A stretch of 64,000 nucleotides of DNA from assembly GCA_017395425.1 (NCBI GenBank), contig JAFPUM010000061.1, positions 62,001 to 126,000 on the forward strand. Direction: 5' to 3'. The DNA comes from Clostridia bacterium. Lineage in GTDB: Bacteria; Bacillota; Clostridia; Oscillospirales; Acutalibacteraceae. Below the pieces are notes generated by a model that did no database searches, was not told the origin of the DNA, and was given only the letters and a program-made list of their open reading frames with translations. Shown in pieces: positions 11,938 through 49,962 of this stretch (position 1 is the first letter of the stretch; each line of letters begins with the position of its first letter). Position numbers and translations under genes: made by a program.

Positions 11938-12042
11938 TTAGGAACTATGCAGAATTTAATCAGTCATTTTCTGCTTAAAAATACTGGTTGCTTGCGTGTT
12001 TCAGCAAGTGAAATGTATCAATTATTTCTGCATAGTTCCTTA
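11938..12042. mobile_element. MITE-like element, copy 1 (105 bp with TTA flanks)
   Basis: A perfect 14-bp terminal inverted repeat, GGAACTATGCAGAA and its complement, closes a 99-bp element flanked by TTA on both sides, which looks like a 3-bp target duplication. A nearly identical element lies in the opposite orientation at 48281-48383. No coding capacity. The right flank TTA provides the stop codon of the CotH gene; the left end is 31 bases from the SNF2 start. The inner GCAGAA and TTCTGC can also form a small hairpin. Confidence 0.85.
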
Positions 12043-14955
12043 TTCATAGACTGCCAGTTCCTCTTCTGTCAATCCGAATGCCTCCCGCAGATGCCGCCGC
12101 GCAATCGCGGGCTTGGCTTTGATAATGCGGTGCATGGCATTGATATTGTATGTGTAAAAACCGCTGCTGGGTTTGCCCCAGCGCTCATATTGGCGGGACA
12201 TCTCCGGATCAATTTCCGATTGCAGTTCATCCAGCAGTCCCTCCAGCCGCTCCGGGTCAAAGGTGGTGTTGATATGATACAGATACCGCCGGATAAACCG
12301 GTCACGGAAATCCGGATTGGTCAGCATACGGCGTATGAGCGTGTTACGGCAGCCGGACAGTCCGTGTGTCGATCCCATCGCGTATTTTTTGATGTAATTC
12401 ACTCTGTAATAGGAAAGATGAAACGCATCGTCAAGATCGAACAGCATCCAGTGCCATTTGCCGCCGTTCTGATCGCGGCAGCAGCGCACGTTGCCTGTGT
12501 CATCATTGCCGACGTATGTTTCAAACACCCACCAGTCAATCAGCGAATCCACGTCCACCTTGTCGCAGACATAGCGGTAATTGGCTTCGTCCTGCAAATC
12601 GTTGTCCGCGCAGAAATCCAGCAGCGCTTTCCATTCGGCGAGCAAACCGGACTGGGCACTTCCTTCCCACTTGATGATGTCTATCTTTCCCTTGGTGTAG
12701 CCGTACCGGTTGACCAGATAGTCCTCGTTGAGCTTTTCCCGGATATAATACAGTCCCCAGTATTCGCCGTTGATATACAGCGCCACAGGCTGGGCTTCCT
12801 GATAATCGCATTGCACGCCGCTGTCATCAGCCGCGCTTGCCCGGACAATCCGCGAACAGAATTCGTCCCGCAGATGGGCACGCAGCCAGTCCTGCCCGGA
12901 AGGACGCAGCAGCAGCGATTCGGTTTTGGACGGACTGTACGCGCCGAAGAAGGGAAAATAACAGGCGTTCACGCCGTAGCGTTCACTCATGATGACAGCC
13001 ATCCCCTTTTGGGGAAAACGCCGGGAATAGTCGCCTGCCACCTTGAGTCCGCAGCGGAAGGAAACCGCTTTCTGCCCGTCAATGAAATATTCAAATGTCG
13101 CTTCCCGCTTTTCATCGCTCAGATAATTGGCTTTGCCCGGCACCAATTGATTGACTGCCTTGGAAAAAATGCCGGTTTCGCGGGAAAAAAGTCCGTCAGG
13201 CGGTGAGGATACCGACACGACGGGAATGGTATGGGGCGTTTGGGTGAGGAACGTGGCAGTTGTCACCCGACTGGGCAAACATCCGTCCCGGTAGGCAACA
13301 GCGCTCACGACCGCGTTTTGTTCGATGACCAGCGGTGCGCCCGTCTGCCAGCGCAGAGAGGAACGGTCGGGCAGCGTGCCGTCGGTCGTCACATAGACCT
13401 CGCAGTCCGCCGACGCGTCAAATGACAATGCAAAACCGGCTTTGACATAGCCCCCCTCGGAGGATAACACCGGCGCGGGCGCGTAACCTTCATATACAGC
13501 CACGCCGTCATTGCTTTTGCCGGGCGTGGGCGTTTCAAACACGACAACCTGATTGATCCGACCGGCAATCCGCCCGGACGAATGTCCGCAGGTCTGCGGT
13601 CCTGTCCGCATGATGTCGAGAATGCGGCCTTCGCCGTCAAACAGATACAGTTCCTCCCCGCCCTGATTCAGCCTGAAAGGCGCTGTCAGTTCTGACTTGC
13701 CATCCTGCCTGTCGCCGACACAGTACACAATGAGATACTCACCCGCACCAAGCGTCACGTCGGGAAAAGCATAACGGGTTCCTTCGGAACTTTTGGCAAG
13801 CGCGTATCCGTCCAGCGAAACGGCTTTGACACCGGCGTTGTGAAGCTCGACGTAATCGCGGTCAAATTCGCCTTCATTGTCCGACACACACAGCGCTTCG
13901 CTGATATACAGCGAGGTCAGCGGGTCGGCGCCAACCGATTGGGTGAGCGCGTAGGAATAGGTCGTGTTGGCGCGTCCCGGCGTGGGACTGGAAAACTGCC
14001 GGAATTCCCCGCTTTTCGGGTCGCGCCCGCAGGAGACATTGGGATTGAGCGGAAACGCCGTCACAGCATCCTCCACCAATCCGGCGGCATTGTAGAACGC
14101 GATTGTCTCGCCCTCACTCAGACGGAAGTCCGCGTGACAGATACCCGGCTGCTCCGACACGGTATCCGTGCAGAAAACCACCAGATACTCTCCCGCACCC
14201 AAAGAGGCTCCCTTCGGAAAGAACCATTTGGCACCGTCATCGGAATCGCCCAGTGCGCAGCCGTATAAGCTCACGGCTTCATCGGAACCGTTATAGAGTT
14301 CGATCCAATCGCTGTAATCCCCGCAGCCGTCGGTGATGCCGCAGATATTTTTGGTCATGTATTCGTTGATGACCACCCCGGTTTCGGGAACGGTCAGTTC
14401 ATCCGGCGACGACGCCGTGCTGCCGCGGTTGGGCTGACCGGGCGTGGGATTGGCATACCAGAGATATTGTTTCTTCTCCTCCGACAGTCCGTAAGAAATA
14501 TTCCGCAGCGTACACGGCGGTATCGTGAGAATCTGTTCCGCTTCTCCCGACGCGCTGCACAGTACCAGTGTTTCTCCCTTGGAGGAAAGCTTGAAACTGG
14601 CGTGCAGATATCCTTCCTCATCCACGGTATCCTTTCCGGAAAGATAGATCACGCCGTATTCTCCCGGCGCAATGACATAATCCGTCGGCACCTTCCACTT
14701 CCGGGCGTCGCCGGTGCTGTCCGAAAGCGACCAGTTTTTGAGATTCACCTGACGGGAGGAAGCGTTCTGAATCTCGATCCAGTCGCAGCAGCTTCCGTCG
14801 GACAGAGGCGCATAACAGGTGTTGCGGCTCATGACCTCGCTGATGCGTATCTCGCCCACCGACACCTTCGATGAATTTCCACATCCCGACAGTAACCAAA
14901 GAATTGCCGTCAGCGTCGGCAGCAGCCATCGTTTAAAACAGTTCACCCGAAGCAC
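12040..14955 (-). CDS. CotH-like kinase lipoprotein with three lamin-tail domains
   Basis: 971 residues. Signal peptide with lipobox LLSGC (Cys25), so it is anchored outside the membrane. Three lamin-tail domains follow (about 34-150, 190-320, 345-470), each with a DWIEI/DWIEL/DYVEL core, W/Y-rich beta strands and a GAGEY-type turn. A chitobiase C-terminal-like segment (VYVTTDGTLPD, about 515-565) precedes the CotH domain (about 575-920), with LYINGEYWGLYYIREK and the acidic MLFDLDDAF. CotH proteins are atypical kinases; the spore-coat members phosphorylate coat proteins. Here the protein is probably a surface or wall-associated modifier. It follows the serine-hydrolase gene by 12 bases in one transcript. 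Its stop codon comes from the adjoining MITE edge. Confidence 0.9.
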   Translation of the reverse strand: MLRVNCFKRWLLPTLTAILWLLSGCGNSSKVSVGEIRISEVMSRNTCYAPLSDGSCCDWIEIQNASSRQVNLKNWSLSDSTGDARKWKVPTDYVIAPGEYGVIYLSGKDTVDEEGYLHASFKLSSKGETLVLCSASGEAEQILTIPPCTLRNISYGLSEEKKQYLWYANPTPGQPNRGSTASSPDELTVPETGVVINEYMTKNICGITDGCGDYSDWIELYNGSDEAVSLYGCALGDSDDGAKWFFPKGASLGAGEYLVVFCTDTVSEQPGICHADFRLSEGETIAFYNAAGLVEDAVTAFPLNPNVSCGRDPKSGEFRQFSSPTPGRANTTYSYALTQSVGADPLTSLYISEALCVSDNEGEFDRDYVELHNAGVKAVSLDGYALAKSSEGTRYAFPDVTLGAGEYLIVYCVGDRQDGKSELTAPFRLNQGGEELYLFDGEGRILDIMRTGPQTCGHSSGRIAGRINQVVVFETPTPGKSNDGVAVYEGYAPAPVLSSEGGYVKAGFALSFDASADCEVYVTTDGTLPDRSSLRWQTGAPLVIEQNAVVSAVAYRDGCLPSRVTTATFLTQTPHTIPVVSVSSPPDGLFSRETGIFSKAVNQLVPGKANYLSDEKREATFEYFIDGQKAVSFRCGLKVAGDYSRRFPQKGMAVIMSERYGVNACYFPFFGAYSPSKTESLLLRPSGQDWLRAHLRDEFCSRIVRASAADDSGVQCDYQEAQPVALYINGEYWGLYYIREKLNEDYLVNRYGYTKGKIDIIKWEGSAQSGLLAEWKALLDFCADNDLQDEANYRYVCDKVDVDSLIDWWVFETYVGNDDTGNVRCCRDQNGGKWHWMLFDLDDAFHLSYYRVNYIKKYAMGSTHGLSGCRNTLIRRMLTNPDFRDRFIRRYLYHINTTFDPERLEGLLDELQSEIDPEMSRQYERWGKPSSGFYTYNINAMHRIIKAKPAIARRHLREAFGLTEEELAVYE

Positions 14956-19393: not shown

Positions 19394-19422
19394 TTGACAT
19401 TTTATGAAAAATATGGTATAAT
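19394..19422 (+). promoter_or_regulatory. Promoter of the first BspA-LRR gene
   Basis: Full consensus TTGACA-17-TATAAT. The region from inside the spacer into the coding sequence (19407-19510) is identical to 23305-23408 upstream of the paralogue. Confidence 0.88.
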
Positions 19423-19442
19423 TATAACACAACATTTTGATG

Positions 19443-19459
19443 TACGCACAGATTGCGTA
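19443..19459 (+). promoter_or_regulatory. Leader hairpin/operator of the first BspA-LRR gene
   Basis: TACGCA-CAGAT-TGCGTA, a perfect 6-bp inverted repeat beginning about 15 bases after the predicted transcription start. It could be a repressor site or a 5' stabilising hairpin. Confidence 0.55.
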
Positions 19460-19486
19460 AGATCAAAGACGAAAGGACATGATGAA

Positions 19487-22400
19487 ATGAGGTTTAAGAA
19501 ATTCTTCGCCGTGCTGCTTGTTGCGGCAATGTTCCTGTCGATGGGAACGGGGGTGTTCCCGCTGCTTGACCGGATACCGATGGTGGCATACGCGGCGGGG
19601 AACAGTGATTTTGTCATCGAAGACGGCGTGCTGACAAAATATAAAGGCAGCGGCGGAGATGTGGTGATACCCAATTCCGTCAAGGAAATCGGCCAGCGGG
19701 CTTTTTCTGGTTGCAAAAAATTGACGAGTGTGATGATACCAGATTCCGTAAAATACATTGCCGGATATTTTTATTTTGATGATGAGTGTGGAGATAACAC
19801 GTACTATGGAGCTTTTAAGGATTGCACGAGCTTGAAGAGTATTACCATACCGGATTCCGTCACGTCAATAGGACCGTGTGCATTTATGGGTTGCAATAGC
19901 TTAACAAGTGTGACAATGCCCAATTCTGTCACGTCAATTAATATGCGCACTTTTTTCAACTGCACAGGCTTAACAAGTGTAACGATATCCAATTCTGTCA
20001 CGTCGATTGGCAAGGAGGCTTTTTATGGCTGCAATAGCTTAACAAGTGTGACAATACCCAATTCTGTCACGTCGATTGACTATTATGCTTTTAAATCTTG
20101 CAGTAGATTGAAAAGCATAACAATACCGGATTCCATTAAATGGATTGGCAATGCCACATTTTTAGGCTGCACGGGATTGACAAGTGTGACGATTGGCAAT
20201 TCCGTCACGTCAATTGGTGAAGATGCTTTTAGAGACTGCACAGGATTAACAAGTGTGACAATACCGGATTCCGTCAAAACGATTGGCTCGAGTGCTTTTT
20301 CCGGTTGCACGGGATTGACAAGTGTGACCATACCAAATTCTGTCACGAAGATTGATATGCGGGCTTTTTCCGGCTGCACGAGATTGACAAATGTGACGAT
20401 ACCAAATTCTGTCACTTCAATCGGCTCAAGTGCTTTTTCCGACTGCACGGGATTGACAAGTGTGGCGATTGGCAATTCTGTCACTTCAATTGGCTCAAGT
20501 GCTTTTTCCGACTGCACGGGATTGACAAGTGTGGCGATTGGCAATTCTGTCACTTCAATTGGCTCAAGTGCTTTTTCCGGCTGCACGGGATTGACAAATG
20601 TGACAATACCAAATTCTGTCACAAAGATTGACAGTTCTGCTTTTTCTGGTTGCACGGGATTGACAAATTTGACGATGTCGGATTCCGTCACTTGGATTGG
20701 CTCGAGTGCTTTTTCCGGCTGCACGGGATTGACCAGTGTGACAATACCAAATTCCGTCACTTCAATTGGCGATTTGGCTTTTTCCGATTGCACGGGATTG
20801 ACAAGTGTGACGATTGGCAATTCCGTCACGTCAATTGGCAAAAGTGCTTTTTATAACTGCACAGGATTGACAAGTGTGACAATACCCAATTCTGTCACAA
20901 AGATTTACAGTTCTGCTTTTTCCGACTGCATGGGATTGACAAATTTGACGATGTCTGATTCCGTCACGTCAATTGGCAAAAGTGCTTTTTATAACTGCAC
21001 AGGATTGACAAGTGTGACAATACCAAATTCCGTCACTTCAATTTACCAGAGTGCTTTTTCCGGCTGCAAGGGATTGACAAGTGTGACGATTGGCAATTCC
21101 GTCACTTGGATTGGCTCGAGTGCTTTTTCCGGCTGTACAGGATTGACAAGTGTGACAATACCAAATTCCGTCACATCAATTGATCAGAGTGCTTTTTCCA
21201 ATTGCAAGGGATTGACAAGTGTGACGATTGGCAATTCCGTCACATCAATTGATCAGTATGCTTTTTCCGGCTGCACGGTTTTGACAAGTGTGACGATTGG
21301 CAATTCCGTCACATCAATTGATCAGTATGCTTTTTCCGGTTGCACGGGATTGACAAGTGTGACAATACCAAATTCCGTCACTTTAATTGGCGCGAGTGCT
21401 TTTTCCAGTTGCACGGGATTGACAAGTGTGACGATTGGCAATTCCGTCAAAACAATTGGCTGGAGTGCTTTTTCCGGCTGCACAGACATAAAAGATGTTT
21501 ATTATTCAGATACAATAGATCATTGGAATAAAATAAATATTGCAAGTTATAACGAGTATTTAACCAGTGCCACTATACATTACAATAGTCCGGCTATTCC
21601 AATAATCTCTTCTATTTCGGTGAAATCAGTTCCAAGTAAAGTAGATTATAATGTCGGCGACACGCTTGACATGACAGGCTTAATTCTCGTTGCCAAATAC
21701 ACCGACGGTTCACCCCAAGAAATCACGGAAGGCTTCACCTGCACGCCCACGGCACTCAATACTGCTGGCTCACAGACCATTACGGTGACGTATGAAGGAA
21801 AGGAAACCTCGTTCGATGTCACTGTTAATGAAGCAAAAGAACTCCGTATCCTCTCCCAGCCGGAGGACACGATTGCCAACGAAGGCGACGATCTCACCTT
21901 CACCATTGTAGCGGAAGGTGACAATATCACCTATAAATGGCAGCAGAGCGACGACAATTGCAAGACGTGGAAGACGCTCACCGACGTGACGGGAGACACG
22001 CTTCAAACCACGCTGACGAAAGAGAACAATCACCGCTGCTTCCAGTGCATTCTGCGCGATTCGCACGGGAACAAGGTGGTTTCCAAGGCGTTCTCGATGG
22101 AATTTCTCACGCTTGAAATTTCGACCCAGCCTGAATCTGTCACGGCAAAAGTCGGCGATCTGATGAGCTTTAAGGTCGTTGCCGAGGGCGACGGACTGAC
22201 CTATCAATGGCAGCTTTCGGACGATCAGGGTCTGACGTGGCGCAACAGCAAGGCGACCGTTGCCAATTATTCCACCACCCTCAGCACCACCAATAACGGA
22301 CGGTTCCTGCGCTGCATTGTGACCGACCAGTACGGCAATTCCGTGACTTCACAAAACGCGTCCATGAAAATTGCCGCCACGCAGCTTCGGATTCTCTCCC

Positions 22401-23188
22401 AGCCGGAGGATACCATTGCGAACGAGGGCGACAGACTGACCTTTACCATCAAGGCACAAGGCGACAATATCACCTATAAATGGCAGCAGAGTGATGACAA
22501 TTGCAAGACGTGGCGGACACTCACGGATGTGACGGGCAACACGCTTTCCACCACGCTGACAAGACAGAACAACCACAGATGTTTCCAGTGCATTCTCCGG
22601 GATTCTCACGGGAACAAGGTGGTTTCCAAGACGTTCTCGATGGAATACGCCTCTATTGTCATTACGGAGCAGCCGTCGCCTGTGACAGCCAAAGAGGGCG
22701 ATCTGGTCAGCTTCAAGATCAAGGCGACCGGCGAAGGACTGACCTATCAATGGCAGCTTTCGGATGATCAGGGCAAGTCGTGGCGCAACAGCAAGGCGAC
22801 TACGCCGAGCTATACCACCACCCTCACCACTGCCAATAACAAGCGGTATCTGCGCTGTATTGTCACAGATCAGTACGGAAACAAATTGAAATCCGACGCG
22901 ACGTATATGAAAATCACATCGCTGAAAATCAGCGGACAGCCCATCAACGCGGAAGCGCCCAAGGGCGGCAAGGTGACGTTCAAGGTAACGGCGTCGGGAC
23001 CGAGCATCACCTATCAGTGGCAGCTCTCTGACGACAAAGGAAAGACCTGGCGCAACAGTTCCACCAAAACCGCGACGTACTCGACCACATTGAGCGACAA
23101 GAACGACGGACGGTATGTCCGCTGCATTGTGACCGACAAGTACGGCAACAGCGTTATCTCCGACCCGGCACGTATGGAAGCCGCGTAA
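19487..23188 (+). CDS. Secreted BspA-type leucine-rich repeat protein with Ig-like domains
   Basis: 1233 residues. Signal peptide (about 1-36, ending VAYA), a conserved cap (NSDFVIEDGVLTKYKGSGG), then 26 LRR_5/BspA repeats of about 23 residues (about 64-668) with the pattern AFxxCTGLTSVTIPNSVTSIG. A Big_3-like domain follows (about 704-780, SVPSKVDYNVGDTLDMTGL) and five Ig-like modules of about 90 residues, each with a YQWQ/YKWQ core and RCI(V/L)xD. No LPxTG or S-layer motif is visible, so wall attachment is unknown. BspA-LRR proteins mediate adhesion to host matrix or to other microbes. The start at 19487 is set by AAAGGA and the signal peptide. It is a paralogue of the next gene. Confidence 0.93.
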   Translation: MRFKKFFAVLLVAAMFLSMGTGVFPLLDRIPMVAYAAGNSDFVIEDGVLTKYKGSGGDVVIPNSVKEIGQRAFSGCKKLTSVMIPDSVKYIAGYFYFDDECGDNTYYGAFKDCTSLKSITIPDSVTSIGPCAFMGCNSLTSVTMPNSVTSINMRTFFNCTGLTSVTISNSVTSIGKEAFYGCNSLTSVTIPNSVTSIDYYAFKSCSRLKSITIPDSIKWIGNATFLGCTGLTSVTIGNSVTSIGEDAFRDCTGLTSVTIPDSVKTIGSSAFSGCTGLTSVTIPNSVTKIDMRAFSGCTRLTNVTIPNSVTSIGSSAFSDCTGLTSVAIGNSVTSIGSSAFSDCTGLTSVAIGNSVTSIGSSAFSGCTGLTNVTIPNSVTKIDSSAFSGCTGLTNLTMSDSVTWIGSSAFSGCTGLTSVTIPNSVTSIGDLAFSDCTGLTSVTIGNSVTSIGKSAFYNCTGLTSVTIPNSVTKIYSSAFSDCMGLTNLTMSDSVTSIGKSAFYNCTGLTSVTIPNSVTSIYQSAFSGCKGLTSVTIGNSVTWIGSSAFSGCTGLTSVTIPNSVTSIDQSAFSNCKGLTSVTIGNSVTSIDQYAFSGCTVLTSVTIGNSVTSIDQYAFSGCTGLTSVTIPNSVTLIGASAFSSCTGLTSVTIGNSVKTIGWSAFSGCTDIKDVYYSDTIDHWNKINIASYNEYLTSATIHYNSPAIPIISSISVKSVPSKVDYNVGDTLDMTGLILVAKYTDGSPQEITEGFTCTPTALNTAGSQTITVTYEGKETSFDVTVNEAKELRILSQPEDTIANEGDDLTFTIVAEGDNITYKWQQSDDNCKTWKTLTDVTGDTLQTTLTKENNHRCFQCILRDSHGNKVVSKAFSMEFLTLEISTQPESVTAKVGDLMSFKVVAEGDGLTYQWQLSDDQGLTWRNSKATVANYSTTLSTTNNGRFLRCIVTDQYGNSVTSQNASMKIAATQLRILSQPEDTIANEGDRLTFTIKAQGDNITYKWQQSDDNCKTWRTLTDVTGNTLSTTLTRQNNHRCFQCILRDSHGNKVVSKTFSMEYASIVITEQPSPVTAKEGDLVSFKIKATGEGLTYQWQLSDDQGKSWRNSKATTPSYTTTLTTANNKRYLRCIVTDQYGNKLKSDATYMKITSLKISGQPINAEAPKGGKVTFKVTASGPSITYQWQLSDDKGKTWRNSSTKTATYSTTLSDKNDGRYVRCIVTDKYGNSVISDPARMEAA
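19680..21490 (+). repeat. Tandem 69-bp repeats encoding the LRR array
   Basis: Twenty-six units of mostly 69 bp. Units around 20418-20556 are near-identical at the DNA level, including the unusual GTGGCGATTGGC variant, showing recent duplication. Confidence 0.9.
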
Positions 23189-23218
23189 TCGATGGCAAAG
23201 CCGTTTGTGCTGCATGAA

Positions 23219-23270
23219 ACAACCCGCCGCCTGACGGATATCTTCGGATATCGGTCGGCGGCGGGTTTTA
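23219..23270 (+). terminator. Terminator after the first BspA-LRR gene
   Basis: AACCCGCCGCC pairs with GGCGGCGGGTT and the stem extends inward through GATATC; a T-run follows. Confidence 0.85.
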
Positions 23271-23291
23271 TTAAAACAATCATAAAAAATA

Positions 23292-23320
23292 TTGACGAAT
23301 ATTAAAAAATATGGTATAAT
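23292..23320 (+). promoter_or_regulatory. Promoter of the second BspA-LRR gene
   Basis: TTGACG-17-TATAAT. Downstream sequence is identical to that of the first paralogue. Confidence 0.87.
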
Positions 23321-23340
23321 TATAACACAACATTTTGATG

Positions 23341-23357
23341 TACGCACAGATTGCGTA
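23341..23357 (+). promoter_or_regulatory. Leader hairpin/operator of the second BspA-LRR gene
   Basis: Exact copy of the TACGCA-CAGAT-TGCGTA inverted repeat at 19443-19459, at the same distance from promoter and start. Confidence 0.55.
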
Positions 23358-23384
23358 AGATCAAAGACGAAAGGACATGATGAA

Positions 23385-26300
23385 ATGAGGTTTAAGAAAT
23401 TCTTCGCCATGCTGCTTGTCGCGGCAATGTTCCTGTCGATGGGAACGGGGCTGTTCCCGCTGCTTGACCGGATGTCCATGGTGGCATACGCGGCGGGGAA
23501 CAGTGATTTCGTCATCGAAGACGGCGTGCTGACAGAATACAAAGGCAGCGGCGGAGATGTGGTGATTCCTGATTCCGTCAAGGAGATTGGCAGTAGTGCT
23601 TTTGCTTATTGTAGTAACTTGAAGAGCGTGACGATACCGAAATCTGTCAAGGAGATTGGCAGTAATGCTTTTTCTGATTGCCGTAGATTGACCAGTATCA
23701 ATGTAAACAGTCAGAATCCGAGCTATACCTCCAAAAACGGTGTTTTGTACAGTAAAGATATGAAAGTGCTGATACAATATCCGTGCGGAAAAACCGGAGC
23801 GTTTGCCACCATACCGGATTCGGTCAGAATCATTGAAGAGGAAGCTTTTGTAAACTGCATCGAATTGACAAGCGTGACAATCCCGGATTCGGTCAGAATC
23901 ATTGAAGAGGAAGCTTTTGTAAACTGCATCGAATTGACAAGCGTGACAATCCCGAATTCCGTCACAGAGATTGGCGATGATGCTTTTTATGGCTGCACGG
24001 GCTTGAAAAAAATCAATGTAAACAGTCAGAATCCGAGTTATACCAGCAAAGACGGTGTTTTGTACAGCAAAGACATGAAAACACTGATACAATATCCGTG
24101 CGGAAAAACCGGAACATTTGCCATTCCGGATTCGGTCAGAACCATTGAAGACGGTGCTTTTTCAAATAGTTCAGGATTGACCGGCATCACCATACCCAAT
24201 TCGGTTCAGTCGATCGGCGGATGTGCTTTTTGGGGCTGCAAGGGATTAAGCAGTATCAGATTACCCGATTCTGTGAAGCACATTGATGATTATGCTTTTT
24301 ATGAGTGTACAGGTCTGACGAATATAACCTTATCGAGTTCCATTAAGAAGATCGGCGAAAGTTCTTTTGAAGGCTGCAATAGCTTGACAAGTGTAACGAT
24401 ACCCAATTCCGTCAAGGAGATTGGTGAGTATGCTTTTGATTATTGCAGCAGCTTGAAGAGTGTGAAAATACCAAACTCTGTCACGGAGATTGGCGATTAT
24501 GCTTTTTGGTATTGCAGCAGCCTGACGGATGTGATAATACCGAATTCCGTCACGGAGATCGGCGAATTGGCTTTTTATGGCTGCACAAGCTTGAAAAAAA
24601 TCAATGTAAACAGTCAGAATCCGAGTTATACCAGCAAAGACGGCGTTTTGTACAGTAAAGATATGTCAGAACTGATTCAGTGTCCGTGTAAAAAATCCGG
24701 CGCATTTTCCATACCGAATTCCGTCACAGAAATTGGCGTAAGAGCTTTTGAAGACTGCACCAGTCTGATCAGTGTCACCATACCGAATTCCATCACAGAA
24801 ATTGGTTATGATGCTTTTTATGGCTGCACAAGTCTGACAAGTGTCAACATACCGAATTCCGTCACAGAAATTGGTGATGATGCTTTTTATGGCTGCACAA
24901 GTCTGACAAGTGTCAACATACCGAATTCCGTCACAGAAATTGGTGATGGTGCTTTTTGTGGCTGCACTGGCTTGAAAAAAATCAACGTAAACAGTCAGAA
25001 TCCGAGTTATACCAGCAAAGACGGTGTTTTGTACAGCAAAGACATGAAAACACTGATACAATATCCGTGCGCCAAGACCGGAACATTTGCCATACCAAAT
25101 ACCGTCAGAACCATTGAAGACGGTGCTTTTGCAGAATGCGCGGGATTGACAGGCGTTACCATACCCAATTCCGTCAAAGAGATAGGCTTTTGGGTTTTTA
25201 ACCACTGCACAGGCTTGACGAGTATCACCATACCGAAATCCGCCACAGATATAGCTGAAAATGTCTTTTACGGTTGTACAAAACTGACTGCAATCCATGT
25301 AAACAGCGAAAATCCAAATTATTCCAGCAAAGACGGCGTCTGGTACAATAAGGAGAAAACCGAACTCATACAATGCCCCATGAAAAAATCCGGAACATTT
25401 ACGATTCCCAATTCCGTCACATGGATTGATCATCTGTCTTTTTCCGGTTGCAAGGGACTGACAAGCGTGACGATACCGAATTCCGTCACATTTATCGGAA
25501 GCGGCGCATTTGAGAACTGCACGGGCTTGAAGCACGTTACCATACCCGATTCGGTGAATTGGATTGGCGACGGCGCATTTTTTGGCTGCACAGGCTTGAC
25601 AAGCGTGATCATACCGGCTTCCGTTGATTCCATTAACCCTGAAGCCAGTGGCATAGAAGACGCTTGCTTTGCGGGCTGCGTCAATCTCAAAGACGTCTAT
25701 TACGGAGATACTGAACTGCAATGGAAAAGACTGATTCATTTCAATGGCATACCGGATATGAACTTAGGCATCAACAAAAACGCAACCATCCATTATAACT
25801 ATGTATCGGAATCTCTTTCCATCACGACCCAGCCGTCACCTGTCACGGCAAAATCCGGCAATACGGTGAGTTTTAAAATCAAAGCCACAGGCGAGGGACT
25901 GACCTATCAATGGCAGCTCTCCGATGATCAGGGCAAGACGTGGCGGGACAGTTCCGCCAAGACCGCTGTGTATTCCACCACGTTGAGCGACAAGAATAAC
26001 GGACGGTATGTCCGCTGCATCGTCACCGATAAGACCGGCAAAGCTGTAAAATCCAACGCGGCTTATATGAAAATCACGTCGCTGAAAATCACAGAGCAGC
26101 CCGCACCCGTGACAGCGAAAGCAGGCGATCCGGTGACATTCAAGGTGACAGCGTCGGGTCCGAGCATCACCTATCAATGGCAGCTCTCCGACGATCAGGG
26201 CAAGACATGGCGAAACAGCAAGGCAACCACCGCCAGCTATTCCACAACCCTCAGCACCGACAACAACGGACGGTATCTGCGCTGCATTGTGACGGATAAG

Positions 26301-26615
26301 TACGGCAATTCCGTCAAGTCGGATGCGGCTTATATGAAGATTACCTCCCTGAAAATCACCAAACAGCCCACCAACGCAAAAGCAGCCAAGGGCAGCAAAG
26401 TAACGTTCAAGGTAACGGCGTCGGGACCGAGCATCACCTATCAGTGGCAGCTCTCCGACGATCAGGGCAAGACGTGGCGGAACAGTTCCACCAAGGCTGC
26501 TACGTACTCCACGACGTTGAATGACAAGAACGACGGACGGTATGTCCGCTGCATTGTGACCGACAAGTATGGCAACAGCGTTATCTCCAACCCGGCACGT
26601 ATGGAAGCCGCGTAA
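23385..26615 (+). CDS. Secreted BspA-type leucine-rich repeat protein with Ig-like domains, paralogue 2
   Basis: 1076 residues. Same signal peptide and cap as the preceding paralogue. The LRR part (about 58-772) is more diverse and is broken five times by a module of about 40 residues of the type VNSQNPSYTSKDGVLYSKDM followed by LIQYPC, a known companion of BspA repeats. Three Ig-like modules close the protein (about 810-1076), ending in nearly the same residues as its neighbour (NPARMEAA versus DPARMEAA). No sorting signal is visible. The likely role is surface adhesion or binding. The start is set by AAAGGA and the signal peptide; a terminator follows. Confidence 0.93.
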   Translation: MRFKKFFAMLLVAAMFLSMGTGLFPLLDRMSMVAYAAGNSDFVIEDGVLTEYKGSGGDVVIPDSVKEIGSSAFAYCSNLKSVTIPKSVKEIGSNAFSDCRRLTSINVNSQNPSYTSKNGVLYSKDMKVLIQYPCGKTGAFATIPDSVRIIEEEAFVNCIELTSVTIPDSVRIIEEEAFVNCIELTSVTIPNSVTEIGDDAFYGCTGLKKINVNSQNPSYTSKDGVLYSKDMKTLIQYPCGKTGTFAIPDSVRTIEDGAFSNSSGLTGITIPNSVQSIGGCAFWGCKGLSSIRLPDSVKHIDDYAFYECTGLTNITLSSSIKKIGESSFEGCNSLTSVTIPNSVKEIGEYAFDYCSSLKSVKIPNSVTEIGDYAFWYCSSLTDVIIPNSVTEIGELAFYGCTSLKKINVNSQNPSYTSKDGVLYSKDMSELIQCPCKKSGAFSIPNSVTEIGVRAFEDCTSLISVTIPNSITEIGYDAFYGCTSLTSVNIPNSVTEIGDDAFYGCTSLTSVNIPNSVTEIGDGAFCGCTGLKKINVNSQNPSYTSKDGVLYSKDMKTLIQYPCAKTGTFAIPNTVRTIEDGAFAECAGLTGVTIPNSVKEIGFWVFNHCTGLTSITIPKSATDIAENVFYGCTKLTAIHVNSENPNYSSKDGVWYNKEKTELIQCPMKKSGTFTIPNSVTWIDHLSFSGCKGLTSVTIPNSVTFIGSGAFENCTGLKHVTIPDSVNWIGDGAFFGCTGLTSVIIPASVDSINPEASGIEDACFAGCVNLKDVYYGDTELQWKRLIHFNGIPDMNLGINKNATIHYNYVSESLSITTQPSPVTAKSGNTVSFKIKATGEGLTYQWQLSDDQGKTWRDSSAKTAVYSTTLSDKNNGRYVRCIVTDKTGKAVKSNAAYMKITSLKITEQPAPVTAKAGDPVTFKVTASGPSITYQWQLSDDQGKTWRNSKATTASYSTTLSTDNNGRYLRCIVTDKYGNSVKSDAAYMKITSLKITKQPTNAKAAKGSKVTFKVTASGPSITYQWQLSDDQGKTWRNSSTKAATYSTTLNDKNDGRYVRCIVTDKYGNSVISNPARMEAA
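23818..23957 (+). repeat. Two tandem copies of one 69-bp LRR unit
   Basis: The unit encoding PDSVRIIEEEAFVNCIELTS occurs twice in succession with almost no DNA change, a recent duplication inside the second LRR gene. Confidence 0.85.
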
Positions 26616-47244: not shown

Positions 47245-47979
47245 TTACTCGGCTGCTTCCTCTGCCTCGACTGCTTCCGCCTCGGCTTCGCCCTGAGCGC
47301 CCTGTCTGCCTTCGATAATCGCGTTGGCGATGACGGAGGAGATGAGCTTGACAGCGCGGATGGCGTCGTCGTTGCCCGGAATCACATAGTCGATGTCGTC
47401 GGGATCGCAGTTGGTATCAACAATGGCGACCACCGGAATGTCGAGCTTCTTCGCCTCGGAAACCGCGATTTTCTCCTTGCGGGGGTCCACAATGAAGAGC
47501 GCGCCGGGGAGCTTGTTCATGTTCTTGATGCCGCCGAGGAACTTTTCGAGCTTCTCGATTTCGAGGTTGAACTTGATAACTTCCTTCTTGGGGAGGCGGT
47601 CAAAGGTGCCGTCGGTGGCCATGGTATTGAGCTGGTTGAGACGTCCGATTCTGCGGCGGATGGTCGTGAAATTGGTCAGCATACCGCCGAGCCATCTCTC
47701 ATTGACAAAATAAGAATCCGAACGGAGCGCTTCTTCCTTGATGGATTCCTGCGCCTGCTTCTTGGTGCCGACGAAGAGGACGGACTCGCCGTTTTCCGCA
47801 ACGGTCTTGACAAACGCGTAGGCTTCGTCGAGCTTGCGCACGGTCTTCTGCAGGTCGATGATGTAGATGCCGTTGCGCTCGGTGAAGATGTACTCCGCCA
47901 TTTTCGGGTTCCAGCGTCTGGTCTGATGACCAAAGTGAACGCCTGCTTCCAGTAACTGTTTCATAGATGCTACTGCCAT
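47245..47979 (-). CDS. rpsB: Ribosomal protein S2
   Basis: 244 residues with [20 protein letters not shown] (residues 5-24), [24 protein letters not shown] and [14 protein letters not shown], plus a Glu/Ala-rich tail. GGGAGG lies 9 bases upstream of the ATG. First gene of the operon with tsf. The leader of about 180 bases contains a branched stem and a terminator-like hairpin, which suggests control by attenuation. Confidence 0.98.
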
Positions 47980-48280: not shown

Positions 48281-48383
48281 TTAGGAGCTATGCAGAATCA
48301 TCATATATTTCACTCACTGAAACGCGCCAGCAGACGGTATTTTTAAGCAGAAAATGACTGATTAAATTCTGCATAGTTCCTTA
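48281..48383. mobile_element. MITE-like element, copy 2 (103 bp with TTA flanks)
   Basis: Same element as at 11938-12042, in inverted orientation. The inner end CTTTCTGC-TTAAAAATAC and the GACTGATTAAATTCTGC end are shared; the middle differs at scattered sites and by two bases in length. The left inverted repeat has one change (GGAGCTATGCAGAA). TTA on both sides. It ends a few bases before the promoter of the LRR membrane protein gene. Confidence 0.85.
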
Positions 48384-48418: not shown

Positions 48419-48471
48419 TGTGCTATATTCTATGTATGATAGGTTCATAAAGAGATGTGGAGGAATGCTTT

Positions 48472-49962
48472 TTGGATCGCCATTACCAAAATGACGCAAA
48501 CAACGACCAGACGCGCCAAAAGCGCACATTCAACAAAAATTCCTCAAGCCATGCGTCCGTTCCCGCAACAGGTACGGGTTCCCGCACGGGGAACAGTTCA
48601 TCCCGTTCACGCGGCGCGTCCCATTCGCCCTATGCCAATGTAGGGGAACCGACAGAAGTACGTCGCAGCCGCACACAGGCGGCGCGTCCGGGCAGTACGC
48701 CCCGTCCCGCTGATGCCGACCGGCAGGGAATGCGGGACGCGGAAAAGCTGCGCGAACAGCGACGTCTGCAAAAGCAGCGTGCCGAGGATCCGCACGGCTA
48801 TGTCCGCGGCACTTCCACCGGGACAAGCCGCTCACCGGTCAGCGAGATTCTCAGCGAAACCAGCGAAAGAAACGGTCAGAATGCCCGCCGGGAATTCCGC
48901 CGCACCCGTCCTTCCGGAATTTCCGTGGAAGGACAGAGCGACGGCAGACCAAGCCGTTCCGATGTGCGCAGAAGCGGCGGTTCCCCTGCTCCGGAAGCTG
49001 CACGCACGGCGGACAGGCACAGTACCTTTGACCTCAGCTACGGAGAGGACGCACGCGAGGAAAAACAACGCAAGGCTCCTAAAGAAGGCAATTCCACCCG
49101 TCCGGTCGTCATTTCCGCTATGCTGCTGGCGGCGGTGATGCTGTCGGTGGTCATCTGGGTTGTCACCGTCAAGGGCGGACCCGGGGGTACGGTCAGCGGA
49201 TCGGACAGCGAGATTCATTATAATATTCCCAACTCTGTGAAAATCGGCGGACAGAAGCTGCGCACCGACGCGGATTACATCGAAATCATCGGCAAAAAGG
49301 TCACTGATATCCGCGACCTTTCCTATTGCTTCATGGTGCAAAGCCTGTTTCTGAGCAACAATCAGATTGAGGACATCTCCCCCCTCAAAAACTGCACCGT
49401 TCTTCAGACGCTTGACCTCACCAGCAATCAGGTCAAGGATATCACGCCGCTCGCGGGTCTGAAAAAGCTCACTGACCTTAAACTCGCCGACAACCGCATT
49501 TCCGACCTTTCCCCTCTCGCCGATATGACCCAGATGGAATATCTCGATATCAGCAACAACGAGATTGATTACAATTTTTATTCGGTGCAGGGCATGACGT
49601 CTCTGCGGCAGCTTTACGCTTCCAACGACGGCATTTCGGATATCTCCTGCGTGGCGGGACTGGTGTCGCTCACCTCTCTCGAACTCGGCGGCAACGATAT
49701 TACCGATGTTTCGCCTCTCGTCAATCTCACCAACCTCGTTTCGCTCGGTCTGTCGGACAACGAAATCGAAAGCGTGACCGCGCTCTCCACCATGACCAAC
49801 CTCAAAATGCTCGATCTCAGCGGCAACACCGCTATCACGAATGTGGAACCGCTCATGAGCCTGACCAACCTGCTCGACCTCAAGCTCAATGAAACAGGCG
49901 TCAGTGAAAAGGATGTGGAGGCGCTGCGTGAGGCGCTTCCCAATTGCAGTATTTCCCGATAA
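48472..49962 (+). CDS. Membrane protein with disordered N-terminus and internalin-type LRR domain
   Basis: 496 residues. The first 205 residues are polar, rich in Ser, Arg, Thr and Gly and likely disordered in the cytoplasm. One membrane helix (about 211-236, SAMLLAAVMLSVVIWVV) is followed by an outside LRR domain (about 255-490) of 22-residue internalin-like repeats such as LTDLKLADNRISDLSPLADM. This LRR class differs from the BspA repeats at 19-26 kb. The role is probably protein binding at the surface. TTG 48472 is preferred (GGAGG at 8 bases) over GTG 48457, which overlaps that ribosome site. Confidence 0.87.
   Translation: MDRHYQNDANNDQTRQKRTFNKNSSSHASVPATGTGSRTGNSSSRSRGASHSPYANVGEPTEVRRSRTQAARPGSTPRPADADRQGMRDAEKLREQRRLQKQRAEDPHGYVRGTSTGTSRSPVSEILSETSERNGQNARREFRRTRPSGISVEGQSDGRPSRSDVRRSGGSPAPEAARTADRHSTFDLSYGEDAREEKQRKAPKEGNSTRPVVISAMLLAAVMLSVVIWVVTVKGGPGGTVSGSDSEIHYNIPNSVKIGGQKLRTDADYIEIIGKKVTDIRDLSYCFMVQSLFLSNNQIEDISPLKNCTVLQTLDLTSNQVKDITPLAGLKKLTDLKLADNRISDLSPLADMTQMEYLDISNNEIDYNFYSVQGMTSLRQLYASNDGISDISCVAGLVSLTSLELGGNDITDVSPLVNLTNLVSLGLSDNEIESVTALSTMTNLKMLDLSGNTAITNVEPLMSLTNLLDLKLNETGVSEKDVEALREALPNCSISR

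Follow-up and report, generated by a model that had tools for sequence, protein, structure and literature searches.

Two short inverted repeats of a Clostridia genome are almost certainly copies of a mobile 99-bp MITE, probably moved by an IS5-type transposase

Background

The window analysed here (the whole stretch of DNA under study, 64,000 nucleotides from a Clostridia bacterium) contains two copies of a short repeat with inverted ends. The question that this locus raises is whether they are copies of a mobile element and, in that case, how a unit of this size could move. We conclude that the two repeats are almost certainly copies of a MITE, that is, of a 99-bp non-autonomous DNA transposon. 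The whole statement, namely that this MITE is moved in trans by an IS5-type transposase with TTA/TAA as target, is in our judgement probably correct.

Results

Anatomy of the two window copies

The coordinates of the two copies and of their parts are collected in Table 1.

Table 1. Coordinates of the two MITE copies and their parts in the window
Feature	Position	Strand	Remarks
Copy 1, low-side target-site duplication TTA	11938..11940		the orthologous empty site of the relative G001 has one triplet here
MITE copy 1	11941..12039	+	99 bp
Copy 1, terminal inverted repeat GGAACTATGCAGAA	11941..11954	+	
Copy 1, terminal inverted repeat GGAACTATGCAGAA	12026..12039	-	
Copy 1, high-side target-site duplication TTA	12040..12042		
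Copy 2, low-side target-site duplication TTA	48281..48283		
MITE copy 2	48284..48380	-	97 bp, 39.2% GC
Copy 2, terminal inverted repeat GGAGCTATGCAGAA	48284..48297	+	one mismatch
Copy 2, terminal inverted repeat GGAACTATGCAGAA	48367..48380	-	
Copy 2, high-side target-site duplication TTA	48381..48383		

TTA was found at each end of both copies, and the copies are oppositely oriented, in agreement with the original prediction. The terminal arms are identical at 14 of 14 positions in copy 1 and at 13 of 14 in copy 2. The perfect 14-bp repeats claimed for both copies are therefore present in copy 1 only, because the low-coordinate arm of copy 2 reads GGAGCTATGCAGAA. Copy 2 is 86% identical to copy 1, which has a GC content of 34.3% against the 52.0% of the window. 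The two units (99 and 97 bp) are short, with a coding capacity of at most 33 codons, and have no transposase gene. A transposase had also been said to be absent from the window; consistent with this, the two families scanned (DDE_Tnp_1 and DUF4096) had their own-genome matches only on other contigs.

We counted the matches to the 14-mer GGAACTATGCAGAA with at most two mismatches: the window has 4, compared with 0.33 expected, and none of 100 shuffles reached 4. The genome search with the 14-bp ends that had been proposed along with the original prediction gave 46 exact matches in the whole own genome, and the reversed control pattern gave none.

The family in the own genome

The own assembly consists of 2,361,148 bases in 62 contigs. 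A whole-assembly search with the element gave 36 rows, represented by 31 near-full copies (86-100% identity), a 42-bp form (contig C26), a lone end (contig C49) and three opposite-strand echoes. We compared the flanks of 30 of the 31 copies, and these were unrelated except for four nested copies, a tandem pair and the copies at loci L048 and L059. The flanking triplets were identical in 26 of these 30 copies (17 TTA, 7 TAA, 1 TGA and 1 TAT) and mismatched in four. TTA and TAA are one site, read from opposite strands; they account for 24 of the 26 matched triplets, and TNA for 25, the remaining one being TAT. The tandem copies (L054/L056) are arranged head to tail and separated by one TTA. The copies at L048 (G000:C20 start) and L059 (G000:C6 end), which differ in orientation, have a common outer repeat on the AAACCGCCTTTCTGC side, and on this side their ends are damaged.

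A wider catalogue was compiled from all the loci examined. It consisted of 77 end pairs, of which a false one (32 bp) was left out, giving 76 elements: 68 are 99 bp in length, three 98, two 100, one 63 and two 42. A target-site duplication is present in 61 of the 76, and identical arms in 45 of the 73 elements of at least 98 bp. The decay after transposition by which the differences between the copies had been explained was tested in part: some differences recur across sets of copies and could be older than the insertions.

Both 42-bp forms (L089 5534-5575, G000:C26; L209 144-185, G001:C58) have TAA on each side and unrelated flanks. They miss the same inner part, between TTTCTGC repeats, and could be either in-place deletions between these repeats or mobile mini-elements. 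The lone end, whose partner end is absent (L088 5393-5424; G000:C49:89392-89423), is located just upstream of an ORF that, judged by eye, resembles a helix-turn-helix regulator.

Empty sites and nesting

We joined the flanks of copy 1, leaving one TTA between them, and compared them with the relative G001. The alignment was gap-free over 499 bases, 460 of which were identical, and the site is represented in G001 by a single triplet, TTT, in place of the element and the two TTA that flank it in the own genome. The empty site in a relative that the original prediction had suggested looking for is, in this case, in a genome that carries the family, because G001 has 42 element matches elsewhere. 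In G007, which has no element match, the flanks matched in two pieces, and in the remaining 15 relatives the flank search gave no match. This orthologous test covered window copy 1, and a comparison of all flanks among the examined loci gave an empty counterpart for window copy 1 only.

Paralogous empty sites were found in a second repeat family of the own genome, 94-95 bp in length including the flanking TA, with ends GGGAWACGCTGAWTAA, which we take to be possibly an IS630-type MITE (TA target). The own-genome positions of this second repeat are C36:32810, C22:3709, C13:5267 and C57:196021, and a short form of 38 bp is seen at L224 1502-1539. Four loci (L217 1502-1595, L218, L222 and L223) hold the second MITE without the element; on C5, C36, C8 and C18 it holds the element inside, always at the same point. 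Precisely, two filled copies from which 99 bp and one TAA are removed are identical to two empty ones (94 bases). The C18 pair is unlike the other three, as its second MITE is 72-74% identical and its inner element belongs to another subfamily, nearest to the copies on C16 and C46. Since both parts of the C18 pair differ from the other three, the insertion point was probably hit at least twice. In the three other composites (C5, C36 and C8) the inner parts are similar and the outer flanks unrelated, from which it seems that the nested 196-197-bp unit moved as a whole.

The mobility of the element is seen twice, in orthologous and in paralogous empty sites. These, with the dispersed copies, bear out the proposal of a mobile TIR element with a 3-bp duplication. 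The absence of other copies and of empty sites had been named as the outcome that would speak against mobility; 31 copies and empty sites were found.

Distribution

Fourteen of the 18 genus genomes, the own one included, had an element match, and four had none. Outside the genus, a search with the whole element gave no match in 12 genomes, and an exact 17-bp end pattern, a strict one that misses diverged forms, was found in none of 294 genomes of the order. A scan of genome contigs with a 30-base pattern gave 46 stretches; the titles of their records name Clostridia, Clostridiales or Ruminococcus, and among them were some RUG isolates (RUG is a name for rumen genomes) and two from goat omasum. 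The window may accordingly derive from a lineage of the ruminant gut. A plasmid search gave no match to the element.

Single end-like matches were also inspected. Among seven of them, one (G004:C292) is a diverged 99-bp copy and another (G005:C176) a copy cut by a contig end; the other five have neither a second end nor an element-like interior, and were taken for chance. Similarly, the 17-bp end pattern occurs in 28 viral contigs, where only one end lies in the stretch available; these were set down to chance.

These data bear on the reading of the repeats as a segmental duplication of a chromosomal stretch, or as an assembly artefact. Six of the examined copies lie near contig ends, as such a reading could expect, but the flanks of most copies are unrelated right up to the triplet, 13 genus genomes other than the own one have matches, and for copy 1 the clean orthologous empty site refutes it. 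We give this explanation practically no credence.

Position relative to genes and hairpin

Copy 1 lies exactly at the TAA stop of a minus-strand ORF (12040-14955, with LTD and CotH domains). In fact, its high-side TTA, read on the minus strand, is this TAA, and the duplication preserves the stop. The matching triplet in G001 is the sense codon AAA, so that the protein of the relative would be longer by a few residues. Copy 2 separates two divergently pointing ORFs, 47245-47979 on the minus strand (Ribosomal_S2) and 48457-49962 on the plus strand (LRR). Elsewhere in the window, positions 19394-26615 encode two large BspA-type LRR proteins next to each other (1264 and 1107 aa), with 69-bp tandem repeats; a 300-bp stretch at the 5′ end of each is 93% identical between the two.

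Among the copies called intergenic, 10 of 18 had a stop codon at most 25 bp upstream, whereas the same is true of 25.7% of 307 intergenic TTA/TAA sites (P 0.007). The ORF caller was crude (10 of 28 copies fell inside its ORFs, which are perhaps not genes) and the count left out 2 of 30 copies (L048 and L059, at contig ends), so the bias toward gene 3′ ends is only suggestive.

This position would suit a structured RNA or a protein-binding palindrome, REP-like or terminator-like, kept by the host and spread by recombination, and so would the long hairpin that the element can form (z of -6.0 for copy 1 and -3.0 for copy 2 with DNA parameters). Against it, changes in the arms are uncompensated (43 in one arm versus 2 in both arms, over 73 elements chosen for ends with no more than 3 mismatches each), which argues that the hairpin is not kept as such, and on these grounds an RNA function was set aside. 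Moreover, the only Rfam matches of the window at gathering thresholds are three tRNAs, and such a palindrome would not be expected to show duplicated triplets or empty sites. A host-kept palindrome is accordingly a very improbable account of the repeats, and we retain the MITE.

A copy in frame in a protein gene

The unit and its duplication make 102 bp, that is, 34 codons. In 31 of the 76 elements (both strands examined), frame 0 counted from the target triplet stays open over the whole unit. By our estimate, an open frame of such length is not improbable in AT-rich DNA; because of this, and because only these 31 keep the frame, we did not consider it as evidence of coding selection.

In one case (L075 1168-2142, G003:C232) the MITE is in frame in a long ORF of an AAA_25 ATPase gene: the 34 added residues are preceded by 111 residues and followed by 180, at which point the contig ends. 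An AAA_25 domain was identified in the protein (E 9.3e-27), together with weaker similarity to phage replication families, and in a tblastn search it matched 94 phage records, all with less than 60% identity. Three viral-contig homologues were found; in the two that were aligned, each 64% identical, exactly the 34 residues are absent. Judging from these alignments, L075 is a clean in-frame insertion of 34 residues. No other copy among the 76 has long parts on both sides, the next best having 43 and 15 codons, or 22 and 105.

One could read the MITE as frame-neutral, a portable peptide or 3′-end cassette tolerated for its length and its target, with the AAA_25 ATPase copy giving a working, longer protein; we consider this quite improbable. 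If it were true, a hit in a gene could add a 34-residue peptide instead of breaking the gene, one frame of the unit would be open when the target reads TTA (Leu), and a hit at a TAA stop would leave the stop in place.

Search for the driving transposase

We searched for a partner in the 18 genus genomes by means of the DDE_Tnp_1 and DUF4096 families and one transposase protein. This gave 45 DDE_Tnp_1 and 6 DUF4096 places, which were inspected with flanks of at most about 1.5 kb. The places were scanned for the 14-bp ends and for inverted ends of any sequence flanked by a duplicated triplet, and a laxer scan was run on 19 loci. A full-length IS with the same ends, which the original prediction had proposed to look for (sought here as GGAACKATGCAGAA), was present at none of these 45 and 6 places of the 18 genomes, several of which are truncated at contig ends and may thus lack an end; draft assemblies can also lose multi-copy IS.

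Two IS of the genus are of interest for their targets. The first, of 876 bp (G006:C30; L158 1475-2350), duplicates TTA, has ends GAGCCTGTTCAGAATCTT, and carries DUF4096 on one ORF and DDE_Tnp_1 with DDE_Tnp_1_2 on the other; the second, of 932 bp (G006:C37), duplicates TAA. The own genome has a 280-base piece of the 876-bp kind, and a piece of the 932-bp kind running into a contig end. The ends of the 876-bp IS match those of the MITE at 10 of 15 positions. This is the highest agreement among a few comparisons looked at; for a single comparison, with base frequencies of 25% and uncorrected for this choice, P is about 0.0008. A third repeat (L122 from 447, L045 from 1604 and L108 from 7285), with ends GAGCCTGTTCAGTATCT or close to it, lies beside TTA/TAA, and may be a MITE of the 876-bp IS, since its ends resemble those of that IS.

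As regards the IS5-related origin originally suggested, complete IS5-type elements of the genus do duplicate TTA or TAA, but none of those found has these ends, and this origin is a putative one. The same MITE could be driven by a non-IS5 transposase family that also makes a 3-bp duplication, and the missing partner with MITE ends in the two families searched is what such a driver would leave. The genus IS5-type elements with TTA or TAA duplications, one of them with partly similar ends, weigh against it, as do other repeats of the genus that carry ends near those of the 876-bp IS, also beside TTA/TAA. A non-IS5 driver is therefore unlikely, although it deserves more weight than the other explanations considered above. 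An IS5-type driver is the likeliest, because genus IS5-type IS duplicate TTA/TAA and one has partly similar ends.

Discussion

What marks the repeats as a MITE is the combination of short length, terminal inverted repeats, target-site duplication, many dispersed copies and empty sites. A unit of 99 bp is too short for a transposase and must therefore be moved in trans. The identity of this transposase and the chemistry of the move, which we infer beyond the copies, ends, duplication, empty sites and nesting observed, may be pictured as follows. The transposase would be provided in trans, most likely by an IS5-type IS specific for TNA (above all TTA/TAA); it would recognise the 14-bp ends and move the unit, which would be joined into TTA/TAA with a 3-bp stagger, and the stagger would then be copied. 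We compared the arms of the 73 elements, a set selected for ends with no more than 3 mismatches each: positions 8-11 (TGCA) never differ between the two arms of an element, and position 6 differs most (15 of 73). TGCA is thus a putative inner binding site, and the outer part may be tolerant.

Bacterial MITEs in general (reviewed in PMC10969869), of which MITEAba12 (PMC6382973) and the QMITEs of Coxiella (PMC5896051) are examples, share with the present element a short length without a transposase gene, TIRs, a target duplication and many copies. Compared with these, the duplication of the present element is 3 bp and mostly TTA/TAA. The end sequence GGAACTATGCAGAA was not found as an unbroken string in the literature searched, and the papers retrieved on MITEs of Clostridia and the rumen were, judging by their titles, on other subjects. 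The family therefore appears to be undescribed within the literature searched, while its kind is known.

The IS5 family has members in the genus with DUF4096/DDE_Tnp_1 and TTA or TAA duplications, and the ends of one partly agree with those of the MITE. Members of the IS427 group are mostly listed with a 2-bp duplication, and one with a 4-bp duplication, in PMC3281130. Unlike the IS5 family, the present element has no transposase, and the places examined in the 18 genus genomes yielded no IS whose ends are identical to its own.

Rickettsia palindromic elements are short palindromic repeats that can sit in frame in protein genes. In our family a convincing in-frame copy is only 1 in 76, and we claim no homology. 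With the nested MITE, the 42- and 63-bp forms and the in-frame copy, the minimum size, the target choice and the protein effects of bacterial MITEs become testable.

Tourist MITEs belong to the PIF/Harbinger elements of eukaryotes. PIF/Harbinger elements make a 3-bp TWA duplication, as here, and in PMC4482050 bacterial IS5 is placed in a tree of the same superfamily; there, the target of bacterial IS5 is written ANT, which does not fit the TNA of the present element. The host here is bacterial, and the likeness is in the target duplication, with no claim of homology. The MITE family that our analysis brings to light in gut-type Clostridia is genus-wide and has been mobile recently, and its TTA/TAA target resembles that of eukaryotic Harbinger-type elements.
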